Part shown: piece after piece, positions 7,378-38,432 of the stretch
Numbering within the stretch: the first letter of the stretch is position 1
Layout: each line of letters starts with the position of its first letter
Origin: Actinostola sp. cb2023
Taxonomy: Eukaryota > Cnidaria > Anthozoa > Actiniaria > Actinostolidae
DNA length: 64,000 nucleotides
NCBI GenBank assembly: GCA_033675265.1
Contig: JAUJYZ010000976.1
Coordinates: 1 to 64,000 of the forward strand
Direction of reading: 5' to 3'
Translations under genes and position numbers: made by a program
The notes under the pieces: model-generated
Told to the model about the DNA's origin: nothing
The model's input: only the letters and a program-made list of their open reading frames with translations
The model's database searches: none

Positions 7378-10300
7378 ATGCAGCACTCTCCACAAGAGAT
7401 CAAATCCAGACTAGACAAGGCAGTAGATCCTGAAGGCAATGTAGGTCCATTTAGAGTGCTCTTTTGGGCGTTTATCGGGCGCATTTTCAAGATTTCCACA
7501 CGCTAAACTTTTTGATTTTCGTCCTTGTGGATTTTAGGTTTTGGATATGGCGGCGGTTTTGGAGCTCGTAAGCACATTAGAGCGACTGCCTTTGACGAGA
7601 GAAGCTCTAGAGGTAGGCTAGATACACTAGTGGGCTTAAATGTCTATCTGGTTTAGCCATTCTGTCGTTGTTCGGCGTTCGGGGGAAGATTTCTGACGAA
7701 ATCGTTGTCGACGTACACTGTATCTTGTACATACGAAGATTCCAAGTTGTACAGTATATTGTATTTTTGTCTGATATGTTTTGTACATGTTCTGATATCG
7801 TGGAACTGTCTGGGCTATATGTTAAAGAAGCTCATATTTTGAGAGTGGCTGTTCTTTATTCACCACCATCGTAAGCTTTAGGTGTCTTTACTGGTACATG
7901 AACAACTAACAAGTGAACCAACGACGATCAAAATATAAGCTTAACAAAGTCTGTTGTTTGTGTACTTTCTCGGTACATAAATTACGGTTTTTTCATTCGG
8001 ATATTATGTATTCCCGAAATCCTAACGTATCTTTCGACCCTGTTTTTATAATTTTGAAGGAAAATAGTCGTTGGATTCAATACGATTCTACATGTAATTC
8101 CCAGCTATCGTTTTCATTTTGAATCCTTTGACTTTCATTCTTTTGCCAGACCACAAAGTTGATATTCTTCATCATGATTGTTTAGTAATTTCATTGAACA
8201 TTGCCATCTTTAATCCCGTTCTTTTATATGATCTATCTATATTTGAAAATAAAAAAACTTCCTAATTTATTTGCCAATTTTCAAAGTTATACAGGTAAAA
8301 ATAGTCACAAAATAACAACTAAACCAGTTGTGGTTACTTATATATACAGCTCCAGTGAGGATGAATATTGCTTTGTTAAGCTTGAAAAGAACAATTGTTG
8401 TTTCTACAAAGCTGTGTCAATGTGGTTGTTTTTTCTTAGAAATTTGAAATCAATCTCGTGTGTGGATTTTTGCTTTCATTACAGTGAAACTTTTTGTAAT
8501 AGTTGGATCTATTGCAACATTCAAGCTATCATTTTAAAGTTCTATAAGTTGGATTTTGATCCTATTTCGCTTGATTTTACATAAAAAATTTCCTGCCGCT
8601 GAATTGGTACTAACTAATATTGTTACCACTTGTATACATTGTAACTTTGTGTAGTCAGTTGCTCGTAGTAATGTTTTTTTGGACATCCTCGAATTCATAT
8701 AATCCATGAGTCTCTAAAGTTGAAAGGACAGGAAATAAAATAGACAATTATTGTCTACAGACATAAAAGCCCATGTGTTAAATGCTGGTCAGTTAGTTTA
8801 ATATCAAATACAATTATTGTTCTACAAAATACAGAGCTGCTCATTTAGAATAGAAAAACATTTAGAATCGTCTGCATAAATTCTTTGTCTCACGTTGAAT
8901 AGAAACAATCCAAAAAAAATTGTTGTTGTTGTTAAAGATTCGGTCAAGATTGTTTGCAAACATGACACTCTCAAGTGCTGTATATATGTACTTTTATCAA
9001 ATAAGGTGCAATACCTCTCGTGTGCCCAGTCAGGCTGTACGGTGCTGTGAATTTGGCTGTTGTTATTGTATATTCAAAATGGATCCTCAGACAATGAAGA
9101 CAGGTCTAGTCTGGTAACCTGTCTCCATACATGGAGCGAGAAAGATCAAAATAAACTATTGTTTTCCTTGGTGCTAATTGAGGCTTTGTTGTACCAGAAT
9201 GTTTAGTAAACAAGTTATAAGATCAAAGTCCTTTAAGTGATCCGAAGCTGATCCAAATCCAAATTCTCCTCAAGATTATTTGAATTTCGAAGGAGAGTTT
9301 GTATGTAAACTACTCGTACTAAAATAAAGTCTATGTCTATGAGTTTGGATTTTGATCACACGTCACTTACTCTGTTCTTGCAGGGACCCCTTCAATTATA
9401 TTACAAGAGGAAGAAAAATCCCTTGTAAAATGCCAGCTGATTTTTGCTTGAAAGCACTGACAAGCAGTAGTAGACATTGTACAATATATATCAATAATTA
9501 ATTCCTGTAGTTACTTGCTACTAGTAGCAGGTTCAGTAAACAGATGTGGTTGTTTGTTTATTTAGTTGTTTGTTTGTTTACAGATCTATATATCAAAACC
9601 ATTGTCGAAATGATAAATAAATAAAATCAGCATTGAAGACAATAATATACTACCCATGTATGAGTGGTTTCCCTTCGTCTTTTATGGTTGTGTATTTTTC
9701 TTATCAATCCATGAGTTGTTCTAGATAGCTAGTAGCTGAGTTGATCAGACAGAACAAAGAGCAAAACTTTGTATAGGCAGTCACGTAATGGTCTGTCATG
9801 ACAGAGCTATGACAGATCATTAGGTACCTGCCTACATGAAGCAACATAATCAGACAGAATGTCAATCACAATCCTTTGCAAATCTAAATCATTCAAATGT
9901 ACAAACTCACTCACATGTTCACACATCAATAATAATAATAATAACCAACTATATTTACCGAGGGTAAAACACTTAACAGTCATAGACTGATAAACCAGGG
10001 CTGTCGTACATAACCCAAAATTCAAGGGGGGGGGGGGGGGGCAATACATATTTAACAGCAAAAAAAATATATAACAATAGTACAGTTATCAGTACTTTTT
10101 GGTATCTTTTTCACATTGCTAGGGGGGGCAACTGCCCCCCCCCCCCCCCCCCCCCCCCCTGTGCTGTGTACGGCCCTGTAAACTGATCAAGCTGGCAACA
10201 GCTTCATACTGATAAATTTTATGTGTATTTATGTTATGAGTTAGTGTTATGGGTAAATAATTAAGGTAAAATGTATAGATTTGCTCCTTTGCTGTTGAAT

Positions 10301-21900: not shown

Positions 21901-24900
21901 TGCTGTAGCCTTGGCGATCAAGTCAGAAGGAATGGTTTCATAATCCCGAGAGGAAGGAATGGTCTCATAGTCATGGTTCTCATCTTCAAGAGCAGGAGGA
22001 GTGAGTTTGATTTCACGAGTCTGTCCTGAGCTGCTTGGAGGAACAGGCCTTGCGCGCACTGCCGCTGGTGGGGTAGAGGTAGCCGTCACAGATTTCAAGT
22101 CCAAACTCCGCGTATCAAAGGATGCAGTTTCGGAAGACGATGAAACTGATGATGAAATGGAATCTTTACGAATGATGTCAACAGATGATAATGATACATT
22201 ATCAGCGGCTGTATGATCTGGCTGAGACAATACTGATGCACCGAAGAACTGATCGGAAGCTGACGAATTCACGACTGACTCTGAATCTACATTGTTTTCC
22301 TGAAAGAAAAGGATAGAAACAATTAGAACCCAGCTGGGGTAGGGTGGGGAGTACTCTCCCTCGCAACCGTCTTTAGTTCCGTCACGCAACATTCCCTGGA
22401 GCATTGCGTGATGGAACTAAAGACGAATGCGAGGGAGAATAGGTGGGGAGAAAAGCACCATATAAATATTTTAAATACAACAATAGTTTGTGTTCAACAG
22501 CGTAGTGCCACAGGGAGCCCAATCAAATGATATCCCACGCGCCATTCCACAGAAAACCAGTCAAAACAAGTCATACGTATAATATCTACAGATTAAATAG
22601 TTGGGCTGCCTGTGTGCATTATTTCATAATTCTGACAAAGTACTGTCATCGTCGTGACGCCATTGTCCACAGACATTGCGCACACAAATAAACACATCAA
22701 ACTTCAGACAAAATGATGTCACACATGGATATGCTGTAATTTTATAGAATCTTGCTTTATGAGTTTTGGATCTGGATGTACTGTGTACCTTGAGTTCTTG
22801 AAGTCCAGCTTGAGGACTTTCCTGGGAAGAAGCTGATGCGTATGGAGCCGGAGGCAAAGGTCTTGGTGTGGGAACCTGGAAGCAAAGTTGCAATAAACCA
22901 TCTCATCTTAAGGTACAGGACACATGGTGAAACATTGTGTGTAATAGTGTAATATTGCTGGCAATGTAATTGCAGCATGATTGCAACTCTGCAACTCTTG
23001 TGACCAAAATTATTGAAGTATAATGTGATCTTACTTCTGCAGAACAGAACATATTGCAGAGATAGACACATGCTGAAATCGTGCAATTGCTGGCATTATT
23101 GCATGCAATGTTGCACATAGCTTTACCTTTAATCTCAGAGGGAAAATAATTAAAGACTAGAGTTTTGAATGAAAATCAAACACTCTGGTACCCTGGGTTC
23201 CAGAGGGCGGAGAAAAGGCAAGGGAAGAGGCAGGGGAAGAGGCAGGGGAAGAGGCAGGGGAAGAGGCCAAGAGAGAAGGCAGGGGAAGAGGCCAAGAGAG
23301 AAGGCAGGGGAAGAGGCCAGGGAAGAGGCAGGGGAAGAGGCCAGGGAAGAGGCCAGGGGAAGAGGCCAGGGGAAGAGGCCAGGGGAAGAGGCCAGGGGAA
23401 GAGGCCAGGGGAAGAGGCCAGGGGAAGAGGCCAGGGGAAGAGGCCAGGGGAAGAGGCCAGGGAAAGAGGCCAGGGAAAGAGGCCAGGGAAGAGGCCAGGG
23501 AAGAGGCCAGGGAAGAGGCCAGGGAAAGAGGCCAGGGAAGAGGCCAGGGAAGAGGCCAGGGAAGAGGCCAGGGAAGAGGCCAGGGAAGAGGCCAGGGAAG
23601 AGGCCAGGGAAGAGGCCAGGGAAGAGGCCAGGGAAGAGGCCAGGGAAGAGGCCAGGGAAGAGGCCAGGGAAGAGGCCAGGGAAGAGGCCAGGGAAGAGGC
23701 CAGGGAAGAGGCCAGGGAAGAGGCCAGGGAAGAGGCCAGGGAAGAGGCCAGGGAAGAGGCCAGGGAAGAGGCCAGGGACAAAAGGCATTCTCTCCCGGCC
23801 TCTGGAACCCAGGGTAACACTGTGGAGAAAGGTATGTAGTAAATTTACTGAGGTTTAAGACGTTAGTCCTTTCTTGGTGGATTAATGTCCAAAATGTCAG
23901 TACTTTGTCACAGTGTTCAGTGTTCTCAAACTCATTAATAATTCATGAAGACAAGACAAAGGAAATCACTACCGTGAAGGAGGTCTGAAAATGTGATCTT
24001 AATTAGCATAAAATTTGGTCAACCTGAACTTCAAACTTCTCAGAAGCTACACCTATTTCAAAAAGGTTGTCGAGGACAGCAGTCCACAGGCAATAGGTTA
24101 TACGTCGTTCCAAGAACAAACTGCATTATGATAACAGCTTGAATGTCGTGGATGCCAGAGAAAATTCGATTCAAATTTTTTCTTGTCCTGTTTGAAATCA
24201 AATAGTTACAATATCATACAGCTTTTCATACAGAAAGTGCCAGTTTGGGCCATTCAAGCTGTTACCATAATGCAGTTCGGTCTTGCAACGATGTATAACC
24301 TATTGCCTATGGACTGATGTCCTCGACAACCTTCTTTGAAATAGGTGTATATCAAACACGAGAAAGAGTTGTTCCTCCAATATCCAAAGACCTTGAAGTT
24401 GGTAAAAAAATTGGCTGCACCTTGTTTTTCAACTCACTTCTTAGTGTGCTCATGTTGGTGTTTTGAAATCAGAGGATGAACTCTTTCTCGTGTATATTAC
24501 TTAAAGAACTAGTTGTAACTAGTACGTGTTAGTTGACTAACAGAACCAACCAAAAGACTTCTTGTAATTTACTAAAGATTCTCCTCCCAAGCCACTGACT
24601 GACTGTCCTATACAAGTTGATGAGGAGACATTACCTTGTAGTGTGAGGTGTCAGGATTACCATCTGATGAAGGTAATGAAGTTGATGATGTTGAGGGTTC
24701 CTACAAAACAAACAGACAATTTAATTAAAGATATCAGGAAGCCTCTGTAAATCACTATTTTGGTGATGTTTATAGACAACCACTGGATATGAGCAATCGC
24801 ACACGTCTGTGATTGGTAGTCTCCCTTGCATCCATTTTTAGTTCCGTCACGCAACCCTCCCTGAGATGCCAGTTGGCGGCGTTGAGTGACGGAACTAAAA

Positions 24901-27900
24901 ACGAATGCAAGGGAGACTATCTGATTAGCCTGCGTAGCTTGGCGGTCTGGAAGGGGATTGGGGAGGGGGGAGGGGGAGGGGGAAAAGGATGGAGGAGAGG
25001 GGATTGGGGAGAAGAAGGGGGGAAAGACCGCCTGCCCGAAGACTATGGGTTTTTGAATTGCCCGACCGCTGGAGAACGGGAAATACTGATTGGCTAAAAA
25101 GTGACGTGTCTGTCAACGGGTGTCAACAACACTTATAATCATTCAAACTTTTCACGAGGCGGCGACACGCGACAGACGCGTGTATTGAAAAAGCCTTGGA
25201 ATTCTTAAATAATTCTCACAGAGATTTTACTTTCAAACCAGAGCAATTAGGCAGGCTGTTAAAGATTTGCTTCGAGGAAAAGATTGATGTTTTGGCTATT
25301 TTGCCCACAGGCTTTGTCAAAAGCATCAGTATATTTATAGTTTTCCTACTGGCAAGAAAAGCATTGGAACAGGACGATACACACTCAGTGAGTGTCGTTG
25401 TGATTTCTCCCTTGAAGAGTATCATTTTGGACCAGATTGCAGAGATACAATCTCTTAACTGTTCTGCAGTTGAAATCGAACTTTGCGAAAATATCGATGC
25501 CATTGTTAGTTCTCCTCCAGAGTTCATATAGTCGATAGCTGAGAGCGGCGTTTTCTCGTCTTCCTTTAGGGAAAAACAACAACAACAACAAAAAACAACC
25601 ACAGTACCTGCTCTACATCGAAGTGTTTCTGCAGTTGTCGTAGATGAGTGTCATACGATGGTGATGCCAAAGGTCAAATTGTAGGATTGGTTATTTTAAT
25701 TGGATTAGCAAAGAGGCGGTATTCAAAAACCTATAGTCTTCGGGCAGGCATTCTTTCCCCCCTTCTCCTCCCCAACCGCCGCTCCCCTCCCCTTCTCCTC
25801 CCCAATCCCCCTCCTCCTTCCTTTTCCCCCTCCCCCTTCCCAATCCCCTTCCAGACCGCCAAGCTACGCAGGCTACTATCTGATTGGTTCCTTTTCTCTC
25901 AATTTCTCAAGTTAAATACAGCGATTTGCAAAAATTATGTAAAAGCAATATATATCAATATATCAATATATTGGGTGCATTGTGGGTAATTTTCATTATA
26001 AAATTGCTGAATAAGCCCTCTAAAGTTCAAATTTATCAATTGTTTTTTCACATACATACTACAAATGTTAATTGGGTTTAGATTCAGGTTTAATAATAGC
26101 TAAAATCAAAGAATTAGGATTATGCAAATTACTATATATCGATATATCGATACATTAGGATTTTACAGAATTTTTGCAAATCGCTGTATGCAGTAATGTA
26201 AAATAGAAAAATAGAAAAACATTATTATGTCCTATAACCAATAATATTTGGAAAAAAAGGTTCCAGCATCACCACAATAAGCATCAGCCTCCTTGTCAAT
26301 ACACATACATAAACTTTATTAACGTGTCATGACTTCTAGCATACCACAAGTGGTACACTAATCGGGGACACTATTCTAATGTCCAATCATACCTCATAGA
26401 TGTTATTGTCATTGAAGCTACTTTCCTGACTTGGACCTAGAACAGAAGAAACAACTAGCCATTTCTCCTATTATAATATCATTATACTTTCGTCAGTCAG
26501 TCATTCTATACATTACAAGTAAGTACTATGATCATTTCTCCAGCAGAAATACCATTACGACTCCATTAAAATATTTATAAAATACATTCAGAAATCTCTG
26601 TGATCTGATTGGCTGTTACACTCGTTTGCATCAGGCTATGCAAACACGGTAATGATGTCCCAACTGTATTTATTTTATAAAAGAAATGTAAAACGTTTTT
26701 CTGTGTTTGCATACACCGAATCTCTACACCGAATCGAGATATGGCGTCCAATTTGAACTGCCAAAGTTCTGGACTGACTAGCCTCGTGTTCATGTGGAAA
26801 CACAAAAGCGTTTTCACATGAATGAGAGGCTAGTCAGTCCAGTACAATAAATTGGTCGCCATATTTTGATTCGGTGTATAGCCTGGCCATGGTGCAAACA
26901 CTCTGGGGTTTGGGAGAAGTCGAGAGCTCTGCGTAATGTGGCTCGGTTTTACACATCAGCTCTCAACTTCTCCCAAACTCCCCCTCGTGTGTGTGTACCA
27001 GGCTATGCAAACATGGAAACTGTTTTATATTTCTTAAACCAGGCCATTAACATGGCCAAGCCATGCTTTCACACCCAAACAAAGTCCACTACTGGTCATC
27101 ATTCAGATAAAACAGCAATGTTATGTGCAATGAATTTCAGCCTACCATTAGAAACTATAGCTGTGCTTGCTTGGGATATGTTGTCTGGAGTAGGTGGCTT
27201 TAGTGGAGTCTTTCTTTGCTTCAGAGCTGCTGCTTGTCTTAGTTTATAGACAGTTTGAAACAACTCGTAGAGAGTTGACGTTACAATACCAGCCTAGAAA
27301 TACACATGTATAGTGCACATTTATTATAGTGCAAGAAAAGTGTACATGTATATGTACATGTAGTTGATCAACATCCAAATTCTCCTTTAGGCCCCATTCA
27401 CACAATACCAGACGAATTTTTAAACTTTCAAAAATTTGACCAGTATACACCATTTACATGGAACCGTCTCTTTAATTACCGGTATATAAAAGAATGTCAT
27501 GTTCACACGGAACCGGATCAATATGGTAAGGTCAGTGGTTTTACCATCTGATCATGCACAGAGCCTGCCTAGTCAGCCACGCCAAAATACAGCTTGCAGT
27601 ACGAAAACTTATCCGGACAAGGTGTTTACATGTACATGGTACCAATCAATTATTTTTATCTGTGCAAGTCAAAAATTTGACCTTGATTTTGCAGGTCCCA
27701 AATTTGCACGGCTAGGCGTACACATTTTTGTACGGATAGCACAGTTCAGTGTGAGCAGAACGCCGAAACATACAACATTTTGAAAGGTTAAAAATTTATC
27801 TGGTACCTAAAGGAGAATTTAGTTTTTAATCAGAGATCACTTACGTTGTTCTTGCATGGAACCCTTCAATTTATGACAGACCATGTGTTCCAACCCATGA

Positions 27901-30900
27901 TGCATTGTGCTAATGATTTGATTTGTGTAAACAATATAATGTACATGCATTACCGTTTTTTTTTTGCCAAGGATGATTCAAACTGACCCCAAATCTTTTA
28001 GAATTTTTTATATCTTCGAAATTTCTTTTTTCGTGGCTTCAAGGCATCATGGGTTCGGGACACAGCATCTGGAAGCGAATAGTGTACTCACCACTTTGTC
28101 ATACTTGATTGCATACATCATATGTCCTACGCTGCCAGCCGCACACTTTGCACTACTAATAAAGCTAAAGATTTTCTTATCCTCAGGATCGTGAGTAATA
28201 AAAGAAACCTTGTTTACAGGGTGTTCAAACAAGACATTCTGAAAACAAAATGAATACACATCAATAATAATAATAATAATAATAAATATTTTGAGGAGGC
28301 CTCCGTCACTCAACATTGGCATCCAAAGAATTACAGTATATGGGTGTAGAGGAAATTATAGTGCTCAAGTTAGTAAGGAAGTGAAATCTCAATGATTTAT
28401 TGACTCCTGATTAGTACCGTAAACATTGGTAGATAAGCTGCACTTGCAGAGAAGCCACACCCTAAATTTGGCAACTCAAATTATTTTGGGAAAAAAAGGT
28501 TTTTGGAAGTAATTGAAAACCAATTAAAATCAAGAAGAAAGCTGTATAACCATATAATGTACTGTAGTGCCATATTTGCCGGTGTTCCCACACATACATG
28601 TAAGCTACAAATTGTAGCTAACAATGTACACCCCTGATTTCAAACAAGGGTCTTAAGGGAAAAGGTGTGGCTTGTCTGCCAGTTTTTGCTGTACTTCAGA
28701 TTTGATTTGCAACGATTTACAACCAGTATAATAATAATAATAATAAACTTTATTAATGTGTCTTAATTTGTTAGCTTACATTTAAAAGTATGCTAATTGG
28801 GGACACCTATCTAGAAAAATTGAACTAAAAATAATAATTAAAAATATATCACCTAATATATATTATTGTATGTCAATACAAATAATATCAAATCTAAGAT
28901 CTAAAAGTTATATTAAAATAATTAAAAAATATATATATATTACTAAAAAAATTATAATATGTATATATAAAATGCATTAATTAACTAATTATTACATAAA
29001 AAACAAGCGTGACATGTTTCTTGTATTAAATCCTTAAGTTCTAATTTCCTTATATGTGATTTGAAAATATTAATAGTGCTAGACTTTCTTATGGTTTCAC
29101 TAAGTTTTGACCATAGAACAGGTCCAAAATATCTAAGACTATGTTTACCGTATGTAACTGTATTAAATCTAGGTATAGTGAAGTCAGAGTTTCTAAGATT
29201 ATACTGATTGCAAGTGTTTTTCTTGAAAAGTTCCTGTATATAGGAAGGGCAAAATTCATTTTTGACTTTAAACATTAGGATAGCAATGTCCTGCAATCTT
29301 CTGTTCTGTAGTGTAGGTAGTTTTGCCATGCTTAAAAGCTCTTCATACGTGTCGATCTTATTGTTGTAAACAGCTCTTAACGCTCTTTCTTGAATACGCT
29401 CAAGTTTTCTGTTGTCAGATGCTCGGCAGAAGTGCCATACAGTATGACAGTACGTTAGTTGAGGCAGTATAGCAGATTTGTAGATAGTAAGTTTAGCTTT
29501 GATTGGTAACATGTTCCTTAATCTCATTAATACTCCAACTTTTTTGGCTGTTTTTTTACATACTGCGCCAACGTGATTTGTAAAATTCAGATTTTCATCA
29601 ATCGTCAAACCTAGGAGTTTCAATTCTGTGTCTTGTTTGATAGGTATATTCGACATTACGATATTCATATCTTTGTCTTTTTTCCTTGGCCCCAAACTCA
29701 TGGTTTGGTATTTCTCAAAGTTTCCTTGTAATAGGTTACTATCATACCATTCTGAAATCAGCTTTCCCTCCTTATTAAGAGCCTCTTCAACTTCCTTAAT
29801 CGTTTCACCAGTGGAATGAAGTTGGTGGTCATCTGCATACATTTTTAAGTTACATTTACTGATTGTATATGTTAAATCGTTCTGGAAAATATTCCATAGT
29901 AACGGGCCAAATGTCGAGCCTTGAGGGCACCCTCTAAGTACTTCCTTCCATTCACTAGCGACTTGAGAGCCGATTCTTACTCTGCATTTTCTTTTGTCAA
30001 AATATGATCGCATTAGTTTGATGGTAGATTCAGAAAATCCATAAGCTTTCAATTTACTTAATAGAAGTGGAGGATGTAATGAATCAAAAGCCTTGGACAT
30101 GTCAGTTGATAGTACTCCTACCATTTTCTTTTCATCGATAGCACTTTTTCCATTTTTCCACAAGACTAATCAGAGTTGTTTCCGTGCTGTGTCTTTTGCG
30201 ATAGGCTGTGAGATTACTACTAAGGCGTGGTTCCATAAATGTTGTTACTTGTTTACTTAATAATTTTTCAAACACTTTATCGCTAGCAGTAAGCAACGTA
30301 ATAGGCCTATAGTTCTTTACATCCAAATTATTATCTTTCTTGAAAACTGGGATCCATTCCCCTTTCTTCCAATCAGCAGGCCAATAACTTGCTTCTATGC
30401 ATTTATTGTATATGGTAGTCAAAGATGGTGCTAGTTCTTGGTGTCCCATCTTGAGAATCTTGAGCGGCATCCGATCATAACCAACAGCCTTTTTCACATT
30501 TAGTTCACTAAGTGCTTTGGATACTTCTCCACAGCTGAATTTCTGAATTTCAAGTTGAGGACCATTTACTATTCTTCTGTTGTTATTTATGGTTTGTGTG
30601 CTAGAATGGCTTTTTAACTGGTCTTCAGTGAGCGCCAATATTTCAGGATCTCCAATGTTTTTAGCCACCGAGGCAAAGTAATTTACAAAGTGATTAGCAA
30701 CTGTTTTTTGATCGCCTATGATAGCGCCATCAATTTCCAAGGTTACACATTGTTTATCATTTCCTTTAGCCCTTGTATTTAACATAGGCTTAAAAACTTT
30801 GTAAAACTCTTTCGGATTGGTTTTAATCTCTTCTGTTTTTGTTTTCCAGTATTCCTTTATAGCTTTTCGACGAAGCTTTGTTGCTGTATTCCTCCACTTA

Positions 30901-33900
30901 TTCTTTAGTTCGCGATTTTCTTGCGTTGGATTATTTAAGAATATTTTTCCATATCTACGTTTCTTCCTGATAGCAGCTTTCCACTCTGTTGTCATATATG
31001 GGACATCAGTCTCTCTCACTCTCATCTTCTTAAGCGGTGCATGGTCATCCAAGATGTTATTAAGTAAGGATTCCCAGTAATGATACTGGTCGTCTATGGA
31101 GTCAAAAATATTTCCTACGTGCCACGGTGCTGTTCTTAAATCATTTAAGAAGTTTTCTTCATCCATCTTCTTAAAATTTCTGAAGGTAACAACTTTACGA
31201 GGATGATGGATGGCATTTCCAGTCATAATCCCAATTACCATTGCATGGTCACTAATCTCTGGGTTGTAGACATGCGCTTCTTTAAAAAGTTCAGGTTTAT
31301 TTGTTAGAATGACATCGAGTAAAGTTTGTGTGTTAATCTTGTGGGTTTCGTTATCAAACAAGTAAGTCCATGAACATCCTCAAGATCCTTCAATATTTTA
31401 CCTTCCCTAAGTTCAGGTTTCAGACGATCAAGGTTTAGATCTCCAGTTATTACAACGAATTGCGTCTGTAGTGATGCCCAGGAGACGATATCATTTAGAT
31501 ATTTTTCCAATCTGAGGTAGTAATCATTTCCAACAGCCTTCGGAGGCCTATATAGACCAATAACTATCACTTCGTGTTTGCCAAACTTGGATTTGATGAC
31601 AAGTGATTCAAAAGTGTTGTATTTCCTCTGAAGTTTTAGCCTTTTTGTAGGTAGATTAGACGAGAAATACGCCAAAATTCCACCTCCTCCTTTGATACGA
31701 TCCTGTCTGTACAAGTTGTAACCTTCTAAACTGAACTGACTGTTTGGATATGACGAATCAATTTTTGTTTCCGTCAAGAAAATGACTTGTGCTTTGAGTT
31801 GATTAACTAATATTTTGAATTCTTCAAATTTGTTCTGTATACTGTTTATGTTCAGATGCATCATTAGTAGTCCTCGATTGTTCTTTTGTCTTGAGGAAAC
31901 AATACGTGACAGCGATTCTCCCATGGGATCTTCTTCTTCGCTTCCGTCATTAGCATATTCAACTTCATTTGTATCTGTCAGTGAGTTCGCTGTTTCATTT
32001 AATAATAATAAAGATTCATCAGAAGCCGTACTAAATGGCAGCGTATGTAATAAATCAGTGACTGCTCCCTGTGCACATCGTACACAGGTCCAGGCTTGTG
32101 TATTTGCTGCAATAGTAGCATATTGCATGGGCGTAACTCCGCCACACTTGATGTGCCAAGGAAGGCTGCACTGACAACAAACAACAGCTCGATGATTTCT
32201 TGCAATAGTCCTTGAGCACTGTTGGCATTTCGGTTTTTCCTGAATTGGTCCTGGATTTACACTGATATCCCCACTTGTAGCCAAGCGAGTTAGTTGAAAG
32301 GTAGAGTCTGAGTTTGAATATCGGCTCACTCGCGCTTTGTAGTAGCCATTTTCTTTGATATTTAGGAAATTGAAATGGCGCCACCGACAGTACCACGGAG
32401 GTTCAGATAACAAGCGAACCAAAGCATCTTCTGATCTGAGGCTTCCACATAGCGTACTCCTGAAGCTATTGGTGTTTAAGTTGACATTTAAACTTGGTCT
32501 TCTCGTATAACAGATAATAGAGACGAGTAAAAGAACCCCAATTCTGGAGCTAGACTGATCAGGCGTCATCCTGATTGCATGATGAAAGCCTTACTATACC
32601 CGTGCTGCAACAGTATGACAAGTTTCCTACCCGTGATGAAACTTATGACAAGCCTTACTATATCCGTGATGCAACAGTATAACAAGATTACTATACCCGC
32701 GCTGCAACAGTATGACAAGTTTCTTACCCGTGATGCAAATTATGACAAGCCTTACTATATCCGTGATGCAACAGTATAACAAGATTACTATACCCGCGCT
32801 GCAACAGTATCCCAATCCTAAGCGTGTACATGTAATAAAGAAAGAAAGGGATTACCAGGGATTCAGGGGGGTATTCAGGTGTTACAATCCCCTCCCCCCA
32901 TGAGTATTTGCTGATAACTTTATCAATCTGTCCGTCCATAAGTCTGATACAATATTTGCATCCATACTCTAAAAATAGCTCAGATAAAAATAGAAATAGT
33001 TGAGTAAAAGTCCTGGTTTCCCAGCAGCTCTAACAAAGCCCCTGATGCATGTATGACTGAAAGGGGCTCCATGTTCTATAATTATCATATTTGGGCATTC
33101 AATTAAATATGCAGTGTTGTATTATGTGCGTCTGTGTGTCTGTTATCAAGTGGAATGTCAGACAAAATGTATACAAAATGTGTGCACTTTTATAATACTT
33201 ACCTTTGTTCGTTCTTCCAGTATTTTGATTCCCATAACAGTTACATTCAGGATAATCTTGGGCTTATGTTCACCACTCTGCTTTAAATGTTGCTGAGGTA
33301 GAAGAGGACAGAGAAGTGCCATCAAAAGACTATGGCAAAATGCATGACATATACTTTGATAGCTCATTTATTTAGGTACATGTAGCAGCATTTATTACAT
33401 GCTAAAAGTTGCAGAAGTGCTTCAACTTATGCATATAGCAAATATATGCCTACTTTGAGTTTCTTTAATGCCTCTAAACACATACTGTCTCCTCTAGGCC
33501 CATCGACTTCTGCTACACCAAGAAGCTAACAAAATAGAAACAACAGAAATGTTAGAACCAGACGAGTAAAACATCGGGTACATCGTGGCTGATTTTCGAT
33601 CACCTGACTACATGTAGTTCCGAACTCTATCCGAAGATTCTATTGTTACGTTACATTACATTATGGACTTACACACCCGATGGCATAGTGGCTATCATTG
33701 CTTTAAGCAACAGTAGCCACAAAAATGAATTCATATTCATTAGACAAATATTACATCAGACAACGTCTTACAACTACACCATTACAGTGCGACGATTTTA
33801 GCCAGGGCAATTTAGACAAAGAGAACCAATCACAATTCAGACGAAAATAGAGCTAATTTCAAAATTTGTGTACTTCAGCCAATCAGGAGATAGCATTCTC

Positions 33901-36900
33901 GTTATCTAAGTGGCCAAGGTCTCTACCCCCAGTATGGACTTTTCCTCTCTACTCTCTCCACCCCCAGTATAGACTTTTCCTCTCTACTCTCTCCACCCCA
34001 GTATGGACTTTTCCTCTCCACTCTCTCCACCCCCAGTATGGACTTTTCCTCTCCACTCTCTCCACCCCCAGTATGGACTTTTCCTCTCTACTCTCTCCAC
34101 CCCCAGTATGGACTTTTCCTCTCCACTCTCTCCATCCCAGTATGGAATTTTCCTCTCTACTCTCTCCACCCCAGTATGGACTTTTCCTCTCTACTCTCTC
34201 CACCCCCAGTATGGACTTTTCCTCTCCACTCTCTCCACCCCCAGTATGGACTTTTCCTCTCCACTCTCTCCACCCCCAGTATGGACTTTTCCTCTCCACT
34301 CTCTCCACCCCCAGTATGGACTTTTCCTCTCCACTCTCTCCACCCCCAGTATGGACTTTTCCTCTCCACTCCCCCAGTATGGACTTTTCCTCTCCACTCT
34401 CTCCACCCCCAGTATGGACTTTTCCTCTCCACTCTCTCCACCCCCAGTATGGACTTTTCCTCTCCACTCTCTCCACCCCCAGTATGGACTTTTCCTCTCC
34501 ACTCTCTCCACCCCCAGTATGGACTTTTCCTCTCCACTCTCTCCACCCCCAGTATGGACTTTTCCTCTCTACTCTCTCCACCCCCAGTATGGGACTTTTC
34601 CTCTCCACTCTCTCCACCCCCAGTATGGACTTTTCCTCTCCACTCTCTCCTCCCCATAGTATGGACTTTTCCTCTCCACTCTCTCCACCCCCAGTATGGA
34701 CTTTTCCTCTCCACTCTCTCCACCCCCAGTATGGACTTTTCCTCTCCACTCTCTCCACCCCCAGTATGGACTTTTCCTCTCTACTCTCTCCACCCCCAGT
34801 ATGGACTTTTCCTCTCCACTCTCTCCACCCCCAGTATGGACTTTTCCTCTCCACTCTCTCCACCCCCAGTATGGACTTTTCCTCTCCACTCTCTCCACCC
34901 CCAGTATGGACTTTTCCTCTCCACTCTCTCCACCCCCAGTATGGACTTTTCCTCTCCACTCTCTCCACCCCCAGTATGGACTTTTCCTCTCCACTCTCTC
35001 CACCCCCAGTATGGACTTTTCCTCTCCACTCTCTCCACCCCATGGACTTTTTTCCTCCTCTCCACTTTTCCTCTCCACTCTCCCCCAGTATGGACTTTTC
35101 CTCTCCACTCTCTCCACCCCTAGTATGGACTTTTCCTCTCTACTCTCTCCACCCCCAGTATGGACTTTTCCTCTCTCACTCTCTCCACCCCAGTATGGAC
35201 TTTTCCTCTCTACTCTCTCCATCCCAGTATGGAATTTTCCTCTCTACTCTCTCCACCCCCAGTATGGACTTTTCCTCTCTACTCTCTCCACCCATAGTAT
35301 GGACTTTTCCTCTCCACTCTCTCCACCCCCAGTATGGACTTTTCCTCTCCACTCTCTCCACCCCCAGTATGGACTTTTCCTCTCCACTCTTTCCACCCCC
35401 AGTATGGACTTTTCCTCTCCACTCTCTCCACCCCCAGTATGGACTTTTCCTCTCCACTCTCTCCACCCCCAGTATGGACTTTTCCTCTCCACTCTCTCCA
35501 CCCCCAGTATGGACTTTTCCTCTCCACTCTCTCCACCCCCATGGACTTTTCCTCTCTCTACTCTCTCCACCCCTAGTATGGACTTTTCCTCTCTACTCTC
35601 TCCACCCCCAGTATGGACTTTTCCTCTCCACTCTCTCCACCCCCAGTATGGACTTTTCCTCTCCACTCTCTCCACCCCCAGTATGGACTTTTCCTCTCCA
35701 CTCTCTCCACCCCCAGTATGGACTTTTCCTCTCCACTCTCTCCACCCCCAGTATGGACTTTTCCTCTCCACTCTCTCCACCCCCAGTATGGACTTTTCCT
35801 CTCTACTCTCTCCACCCCCAGTATGGACTTTTCCTCTCCACTCTCTCCACCCCCAGTATGGACTTTTCCTCTCCACTCTCTCCACCCCCAGTATGGACTT
35901 TTCCTCTCCACTCTTTCCACCCCCAGTATGGACTTTTCCTCTCCACTCTCTCCACCCCCAGTATGGACTTTTCCTCTCCACTCTCTCCACCCCATGGACT
36001 TTTCCTCTCCACTCTCTCCACCCCCAGTATGGACTTTTCCTCTCCACTCTCTCCACCCCATGGACTTTTCCTCTCCACTCTCTCCACCCCCAGTATGGAC
36101 TTTTCCTCTCCACTCTCTCCACCCCCAGTATGGACTTTTCCTCTCCACTCTCTCCACCCCCAGTATGGACTTTTCCTCTCTACTCTCTCCACCCCCAGTA
36201 TGGACTTTTCCTCTCCACTCTCTCCACCCCCAGTATGGACTTTTCCTCTCCACTCTCTCCACCCATAGTATGGACTTTTCCTCTCCACTCTCTCCACCCC
36301 CAGTATGGACTTTTTCCTCTCCACTCTCTCCACCCCCAGTATGGACTTTTCCTCTCCACTCTCTCCACCCCCAGTATGGACTTTTCCTCTCCACTCTCTC
36401 CACCCCCAGTATGGACTTTTCCTCTCCACTCTCTCCACCCCATGGACTTTTCCTCTCCACTCTCTCCACCCCCAGTATGGACTTTTCCTCTCCACTCTCT
36501 CCACCCCATGGACTTTTCCTCTCCACTCTCTCCACCCCTAGTATGGACTTTTCCTCTCTACTCTCTCCACCCCCAGTATGGACTTTTCCTCTCACTCTCT
36601 CCACCCCAGTATGGACTTTTCCTCTCTACTCTCTCCATCCCAGTATGGAATCTTCCTCTCTACTCTCTCCACCCCCAGTATGGACTTTTCCTCTCTACTC
36701 TCTCCACCCATAGTATGGACTTTTCCTCTCCACTCTCTCCACCCCCAGTATGGACTTTTCCTCTCCACTCTCTCCACCCCCAGTATGGACTTTTCCTCTC
36801 CACTCTTTCCACCCCCAGTATGGACTTTTCCTCTCCACTCTCTCCACCCCCAGTATGGACTTTTCCTCTCCACTCTCTCCACCCCATGGACTTTTCCTCT

Positions 36901-38432
36901 CCACTCTCTCACCCCCAGTATGGACTTTTCCTCTCCACTCTCTCCACCCCATGGACTTTTCCTCTCCACTCTCTCCACCCCTAGTATGGACTTCTCCTCT
37001 CTACTCTCTCCACCCCCAGTATGGACTTTTCCTCTCACTCTCTCCACCCCAGTATGGACTTTTCCTCTCTACTCTCTCCATCCCAGTATGGAATATTCCT
37101 CTCTACTCTCTCCACCCCAGTATGGACTTTTCCTCTCTACTCTCTCCACCCATAGTATGGACTTTTCCTCTCCACTCTCTCCACCCCCAGTATGGACTTT
37201 TCCTCTCCACTCTCTCCACCCCCAGTATGGACTTTTCCTCTCCACTCTTTCCACCCCCAGTATGGACTTTTCCTCTCCACTCTCTCCACCCCCAGTATGG
37301 ACTTTTCCTCTCCACTCTCTCCACCCCCAGTATGGACTTTTCCTCTCCACTCTCTCCACCCCCAGTATGGACTTTTCCTCTCCACTCTCTCCACCCCCAG
37401 TATGGACTTTTCCTCTCCACTCTCTCCACCCCATGGACTTTTCCTCTCCACTCTCTCCACCCCCAGTATGGACTTTTCCTCTCCACTCGCTCCACCCCAT
37501 GGACTTTTCCTCTCCACTCTCTCCACCCCTAGTATGGACTTTTCCTCTCCACTCTCTCCACCTCCAGTATGGACTTTTCCTCTCCACTCTCTCCACCCCC
37601 AGTATGGACTTTTCCTCTCTACTCTCTCCACCCCCAGTATGGACTTTTCCTCTCCACTCTCTCCACCCCCAGTATGGACTTTTCCTCTCTACTCTCTCCA
37701 CCCCCAGTATGGACTCTTCCTCTCCACTCTCTCTACCCTAGTGGGCAGTGGTGATATCATTAATATCTTCACATGTGAAGACATCATTTTACGAATAAAA
37801 AAAGAAAATCTATGTTTTCTACCACTGATTGTTATATGGAGATATGGAATTTATCTTCTCATGTTGAGAAATATCGCACTTGCGATATTATCTCACTCGT
37901 GAGATAAATTTTTCAACACTCAAATATAAATCCTGTATCTCCATGTGGCCATGTAATATCCTCTATATATTTCTTAAATGTCATATTTTATTAGTGATTT
38001 TTCAAATAATATTTTTCAAATTATTTGATCACAAAAAAAATATCAAAAATTAATGTGGCAGAAACTTGATACTTTTTCTAGGTATCATATTAGGAAAGGA
38101 AAGTTTTTCAATACATCTGTGAGCGAAATCTGGACAGAAAGATACATGCTCAATTCAGACAGCAAATTCCATGTCCATGTCCATGTCCATCGGTAACCCC
38201 CCTCCCCCTCCCCCTCAACCTAAGAAAGTGCCTCCGAGCACACTCAACTCATACTCATCTATTAATCCACAAGGGAGCTTTATTTTGTAAAAGGTTGTTG
38301 TGTAGATTAGAATCCTGTGAATTTCCTGTATTCTTGCAAACAGCAACACAGTATGAAAACAGTTATTGATGGTTTGTTTTTATTACTCGGGCCCAGGCCG
38401 CAGGCCGCCCGAGTTAGAAAATGCGGATTTCG

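Follow-up and report, generated by a model that had tools for sequence, protein, structure and literature searches.

How does a fragment of a RecQ-like helicase gene come to lie inside a short transposable element? The question is raised by a 950-bp element in a stretch of 64,000 nucleotides from the sea anemone Actinostola sp. cb2023 (assembly GCA_033675265.1, contig JAUJYZ010000976.1, positions 1 to 64,000 of the forward strand; this whole stretch is called the window). The original prediction saw in the fragment a transduplicated host gene, taken up in the manner of Pack-MULEs, the gene-carrying kind of Mutator-like elements (MULEs), and named a larger autonomous parent as the alternative. 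We are confident that the window element is instead non-autonomous and arose by internal deletion from a DNA transposon with its own RecQ-type helicase and a putative DDE-type transposase (DUF6589), very likely a member of AcademH; as judged by sequence comparison, the helicase fragment is what the internal deletion left, not a gene picked up from the host.

Results

The element itself proved to be built as predicted. Exact copies of the 9-bp target-site duplication (TSD) flank 950 bp, and the arms of its terminal inverted repeats (TIRs), expected at about 150 bp, measure 133 and 155 bp, with 79% identity over 156 columns and the outer 30 bp identical (inverted) between the two ends. No transposase was recognised among the listed open reading frames of these 950 bp, and the announced helicase motifs I, Ia and II are all present, with one in-frame stop between PTGFVKS and DECHTM. 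The features are:

24917..24925, left 9-bp TSD CTATCTGAT; its first 3 bases also form the terminus of an older miniature inverted-repeat transposable element (MITE)
24926..25875, plus strand, non-autonomous TIR element, internal-deletion derivative of type A (defined below), 950 bp
24926..25058, plus strand, left TIR, G-rich, beginning TAGCCTGCGTAGC
25059..25138, plus strand, interval separating the left TIR from the helicase frame, containing the strings ATTGGCT and TGACGT; from its position alone, probably the 5' portion of the helicase gene in the parent
25139..25528, plus strand, decayed helicase frame with motifs I (PTGFVKS) and Ia, matching the 5' portion of the RecQ-type gene in the parent
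25529-25531, plus strand, in-frame TAG interrupting the helicase frame
25532..25661, plus strand, the same frame past the TAG; it reaches motif II (DECHTM), the limit of the left part derived from the parent
25661..25666, junction of the internal deletion, at which concat position 961 of parent C674 meets 8880
25666..25875, minus strand, right parent end: upstream stretch of the parent's DUF6589-type gene, and right TIR
25721..25875, minus strand, right TIR
25876..25884, right 9-bp TSD CTATCTGAT, exact copy of the left one

The origin of the fragment is revealed by copy L016, which continues into the remainder of a RecQ-type gene and is itself a full-length parent: an element of the same family of 8,891 bp (G000:C674, 89774-98664) with the family TIRs and a perfect 9-bp TSD, ATGTCTGCT. 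In tblastn, its RecQ-type gene gave frames to about concat position 2520, reaching the C-terminal helicase part, and three stretches convergent to this gene match the DUF6589 protein P0036 at 35-38%. The window element corresponds to both ends of such a parent: its positions 1-736 are colinear with parent positions 205-961 (78%) and its positions 741-950 with 8880-9095 (88.5% over 217 columns), with about 7.9 kb absent between them. The C674 copy is probably dead because its helicase exon 1 is split across two frames. The larger parent is thus borne out as a full-length, helicase-carrying relative, not as an intact autonomous copy.

A whole-genome tblastn search with the helicase frame (150 of 305 candidates scored, 30 loci taken, L029-L058) yielded both derivative copies of the element and RecQ-type genes of greater length. 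Five of the longer genes were opened, that of C674 (reached via L016) and four from the tblastn list:

C763, related element, 8,340 bp: perfect TSD GACCGAAGG, TIRs, RecQ-like frame, convergent DUF6589 gene
C64, related element, 9,111 bp: perfect TSD TTTCCAGCT, TIR of 90 bp at 97%, RecQ-like frame, convergent DUF6589 gene
C509 (L059), related element, 2,740 bp: both TIRs, DEAD 2.1e-14, Helicase_C 5e-18
C253 (L060), related locus: one TIR, DEAD 5.5e-19, Helicase_C 5.3e-16

Two TIRs are found in C509, C763, C64 and C674 and one in C253, whose second TIR was not found in the 11 kb examined. The C64 TIR has just the TAGCCT start in common with the family. The helicases of C763 and C64 were recognised from a tblastn match (1.6e-11 and 2.8e-4, respectively) and motifs read by eye, and their best DUF6589 exons scored 1.6e-19 and 1.7e-22 against Pfam. 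The C253 helicase spans two exons (spliced manually) and 566 aa without stops, beside a DUF6589 piece at 2.5e-5, slightly under the Pfam cut-off. In C509, the start of the second gene is present, as judged by eye, and the flanking 9-mers (TGAGGAGAA and TGAGTTGGT) are 5/9 alike. Seven further loci (L038, L040, L044, L045, L049, L053, L058), each compared with the element, each contain parts of it. A free-standing host RecQ gene close to the fragment was not seen among the five opened genes and seven compared loci, most listed loci being unopened. The search proposed to find a host donor or a parent thus met longer RecQ-type genes in TIR elements and, among the loci opened or compared, no host donor.

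Two details of these loci are recorded here. On the minus strand of L062, the inferred intron in the C64 DUF6589 gene has a GC donor (AAG/GCAAGT). At C253, a 487-aa open frame (L061:1986-3449, minus strand) looks by eye like a Rep-type replication protein and lies near a frame resembling, also by eye, the end of a Tc1/mariner transposase.

The element belongs to a family of copies. A genome search with it gave at least 153 matches, a lower bound on copy number because 40 of 677 first-look candidates were scored. The 28 copies fetched (L001-L028) were picked by their match to the whole element, so that copies lacking the helicase are under-sampled; within this sample the helicase fragment is present in 28/28 (tblastn). 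With a substitution-only end pattern, an end pair was located in 24/28 copies, 17 of which have 9/9 TSDs; when indels were permitted and the best flank match decided the pair, the figures are 25/28 and 18/25. All 18 perfect TSDs differ in sequence, and flank pairs drawn between unlike loci never matched at 9/9 (0/306; maximum 5), so that the 9-bp repeats at the element edges exceed chance. Among the remainder, L002 and L004 match at 8/9 (substitution-only pattern) and L008 at 8/8, L006, L021 and L024 match poorly, L016 was mispaired with a false right end, and L009, L012 and L013 gave no end pair. The flanks of L021 are reverse complements (CATGATTAC / GTAATCATG) with no direct duplication, as after inversion or inter-copy exchange. 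At L040, L045 and L053 the copies are embedded in a larger repeat (97% identity across roughly 3 kb) whose inverted arms measure some 0.7 kb; none of the three showed a left TIR match.

Leaving aside L009, L012 and L013 (no end pair) and L016 (the parent), the copies fall into type A (12 copies: L001-L008, L010, L011, L014, L015) and type B (12 copies: L017-L028). Two or more deletion junctions are distinguishable, with roughly a dozen compared copies each: in L022-type copies, parent positions 205-881 are joined to 8860-9095, a junction distinct from that of the window element, and L002 and L007 differ further near their junctions. Mean distances (up to 475 columns) are 0.063 within type A, 0.017 within type B and 0.183 between them; to C674 they are 0.195 for type A and 0.043 for type B. 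These distances place C674 close to the type B master and suggest that type A derives from a sister subfamily, no full-length copy of which was found among the elements opened.

The retained helicase frame runs past the TAG over 25532-25681, DECHTM included. Its best NCBIfam family is RecQ (TIGR00614); the window copy matches this model at 5e-6 and Pfam DEAD at 8.5e-5 and, as a truncated sequence would, stays below the curated cut-off of either model. The better-kept copy L022 reaches 3.7e-10 (under cut-off) and 1.2e-11 (above cut-off), respectively, and its best PDB match is BLM (2e-5). Because motif I reads PTGFGKS in L022 and many other copies, the V of PTGFVKS in the window copy is probably decay. 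Could the fragment be kept for a function, for example as a truncated regulator of transposition? Half of the type B copies (L018, L021, L022, L023, L024, L026) have neither a stop nor a net frameshift over the 354-base stretch compared, but only 1/12 type A copies (L007) is in this state. In addition, a simple count without a tree, made against the majority sequence of each group, finds 133 nonsynonymous and 54 synonymous differences in type A and 34 and 12, few in number, in type B, with ratios to expectation of 1.00 and 1.08, that is, neutral in both types. A retained function is thus highly improbable, and in all likelihood the remnant no longer has a role. One predicted Actinostola protein, P0021, contains the helicase fragment of the element close to its N-terminus, followed by other sequence; this reflects a mistaken gene model or else a fusion.

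The second gene of the parents belongs to DUF6589, which Pfam lists without a known function and which occurs in corals, soft corals and sea anemones. In structural comparison, models of two DUF6589 homologues had DDE transposases at the top of the ranking, P-element and Hermes among them, at moderate Z; the matches include ISCth4, a relative of MULE transposases. The homologues are thus predicted to have a DDE/RNase H-like fold, from which DDE chemistry might be inferred. A Pfam scan of second-gene exons from C253, C64 and C763 gave DUF6589 matches and no MULE model. The word DUF6589 occurs in no paper of the PMC literature searched, which shows merely that the name is unused there.

The window copy is nested at the edge of an older MITE, as the following features show:

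24808..24816, left 9-mer of the MITE, TGTGATTGG
24817..24919, older TAGTCTCCC MITE adjoining the element
25879..25887, right 9-mer of the MITE, TCTGATTGG, read beyond the element

Removing the element and one TSD copy restores TCTGATTGG on the right, 8/9 matching TGTGATTGG. The target consisted of the 3 final MITE bases and 6 bases of the MITE's duplication; therefore, the element inserted after the MITE, the order originally proposed. A related MITE at 22352-22441 is 75% alike and has a perfect 9-bp duplication, GGTGGGGAG. The termini of the MITE at 24817-24919 are TAG..CTA, as in the window element, and those of the other TAC..ATA. Both MITEs were perhaps moved by the same transposase as the element, or by a related one.

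Elsewhere in the window, long repetitive stretches at 33857-37902 and 23150-23858, tandem repeats by their look, are open in several frames on both strands, and large frames at 28985-32590 (minus strand) resemble by eye a non-long-terminal-repeat retrotransposon with a PHD-type finger and a reverse transcriptase.

Discussion

Our findings point to a parent transposon in which a RecQ-type helicase gene and a DUF6589 gene would lie convergently between TIRs. An internal deletion may have arisen in a master copy, e.g. by interrupted gap repair following excision, and the deleted copies, through the TIRs that they share with a parent, would then have been mobilised in trans by its transposase and inserted at cuts staggered by 9 bp. 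The window copy landed at the edge of the older MITE.

The captured-host-gene explanation, in which a MULE-like element picked up and then spread a segment from a host RecQ gene, appears very unlikely. It could draw on the long TIRs and 9-bp TSD, which suit MULEs in the available part of one source (PMC6446971), and on the lack of a recognised transposase within 950 bp. However, a longer helicase gene sits beside a second, transposase-like gene inside the TSD-flanked C674 of the same family, and likewise in related elements (C763 and C64 with perfect TSDs, C509 with both TIRs); moreover, both derivative ends are colinear with the C674 parent and the second-gene exons of C253, C64 and C763 match no MULE model. 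What would be captured host sequence in a Pack-MULE is here the parent transposon's own gene. Neither would capture have been new to animals: transduplication is reported for Turmoil-1 of C. elegans in the portion available of PMC2572040.

Which transposon is the parent? Membership in AcademH is very likely, as the helicase, the duplication length and the host all fit. AcademH, a lineage of Academ DNA transposons, is reportedly the subject of Kojima 2020 in Mob DNA. Three of its traits are found here: an element-encoded RecQ-type (superfamily II) helicase in C253, C509 and C674, and by the tblastn match and motifs in C763 and C64, with motifs I to II left in the window copy; TSDs of 9 bp in 18/25 paired copies, C674, C763 and C64 (5/9 alike in C509); and TIRs in the window element, C674, C763, C64 and C509. 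The parents' candidate for an Academ-type transposase would be the DUF6589 gene, with the DDE/RNase H-like fold predicted for its homologues. Alternatively, the RecQ and DUF6589 elements might be an undescribed lineage or superfamily, as the unused name DUF6589 could suggest, but this is unlikely: in the parts available of two sources, AcademH has a helicase, duplicates 9 or 10 bp and is hosted by animals and fungi (PMC10045372, PMC10799480, the latter citing it by title as Academ with a helicase in animals and fungi), and a RecQ helicase is named in Academ (PMC3627910, in part). Similarly doubtful is the combined proposal that DUF6589, on its modelled fold, is a P-element/hAT-like DDE transposase and its elements a lineage apart from known Academ. 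A KolobokH-like element is the remaining candidate, and an extremely improbable one. Kolobok elements duplicate TTAA, which is at odds with 18 unlike 9-bp TSDs. KolobokH does encode a RecQ helicase but is known solely from fungi, according to the part of PMC9587614 available.

Pack-MULE-like gene capture thereby loses a proposed example from animals, and a host-like frame inside a TIR element should first prompt a look for its full-length parent. The element is an ordinary deletion derivative; what is mildly notable is that DUF6589, an unnamed Pfam family, is now linked to full-length, TSD-flanked RecQ-type transposons and to a predicted transposase-like fold. Because of this link, some coral and anemone proteins predicted as 'uncharacterized' or 'RecQ-like' may be transposon genes.

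Compared with known systems, the window family is closest to AcademH, known here by description (PMC10045372, PMC10799480, in part): both are DNA transposons with a helicase and 9-bp TSDs (9 or 10 reported), AcademH being reported from animals and fungi, but the window copy lacks a transposase and most of the helicase. AcademX, of the same superfamily by report, has a nuclease and duplications of 3 or 4 bp (PMC10045372, in part), in contrast to a helicase and 9 bp. With Pack-MULEs and MULEs the window element shares non-autonomy, long TIRs, a 9-bp TSD and carried coding sequence, but this sequence is transposon-own and the parents have a DUF6589 gene, which in C253, C64 and C763 matches no MULE model. 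KolobokH is likewise a DNA transposon with a RecQ helicase but differs in TSD and, as far as the available text of PMC9587614 goes, in its restriction to fungi. Turmoil-1 is an animal TIR element for which acquired coding sequence is reported; it took unrelated gene fragments into its inverted terminal repeats (PMC2572040, in part), whereas the frame in the window element is the element's own.
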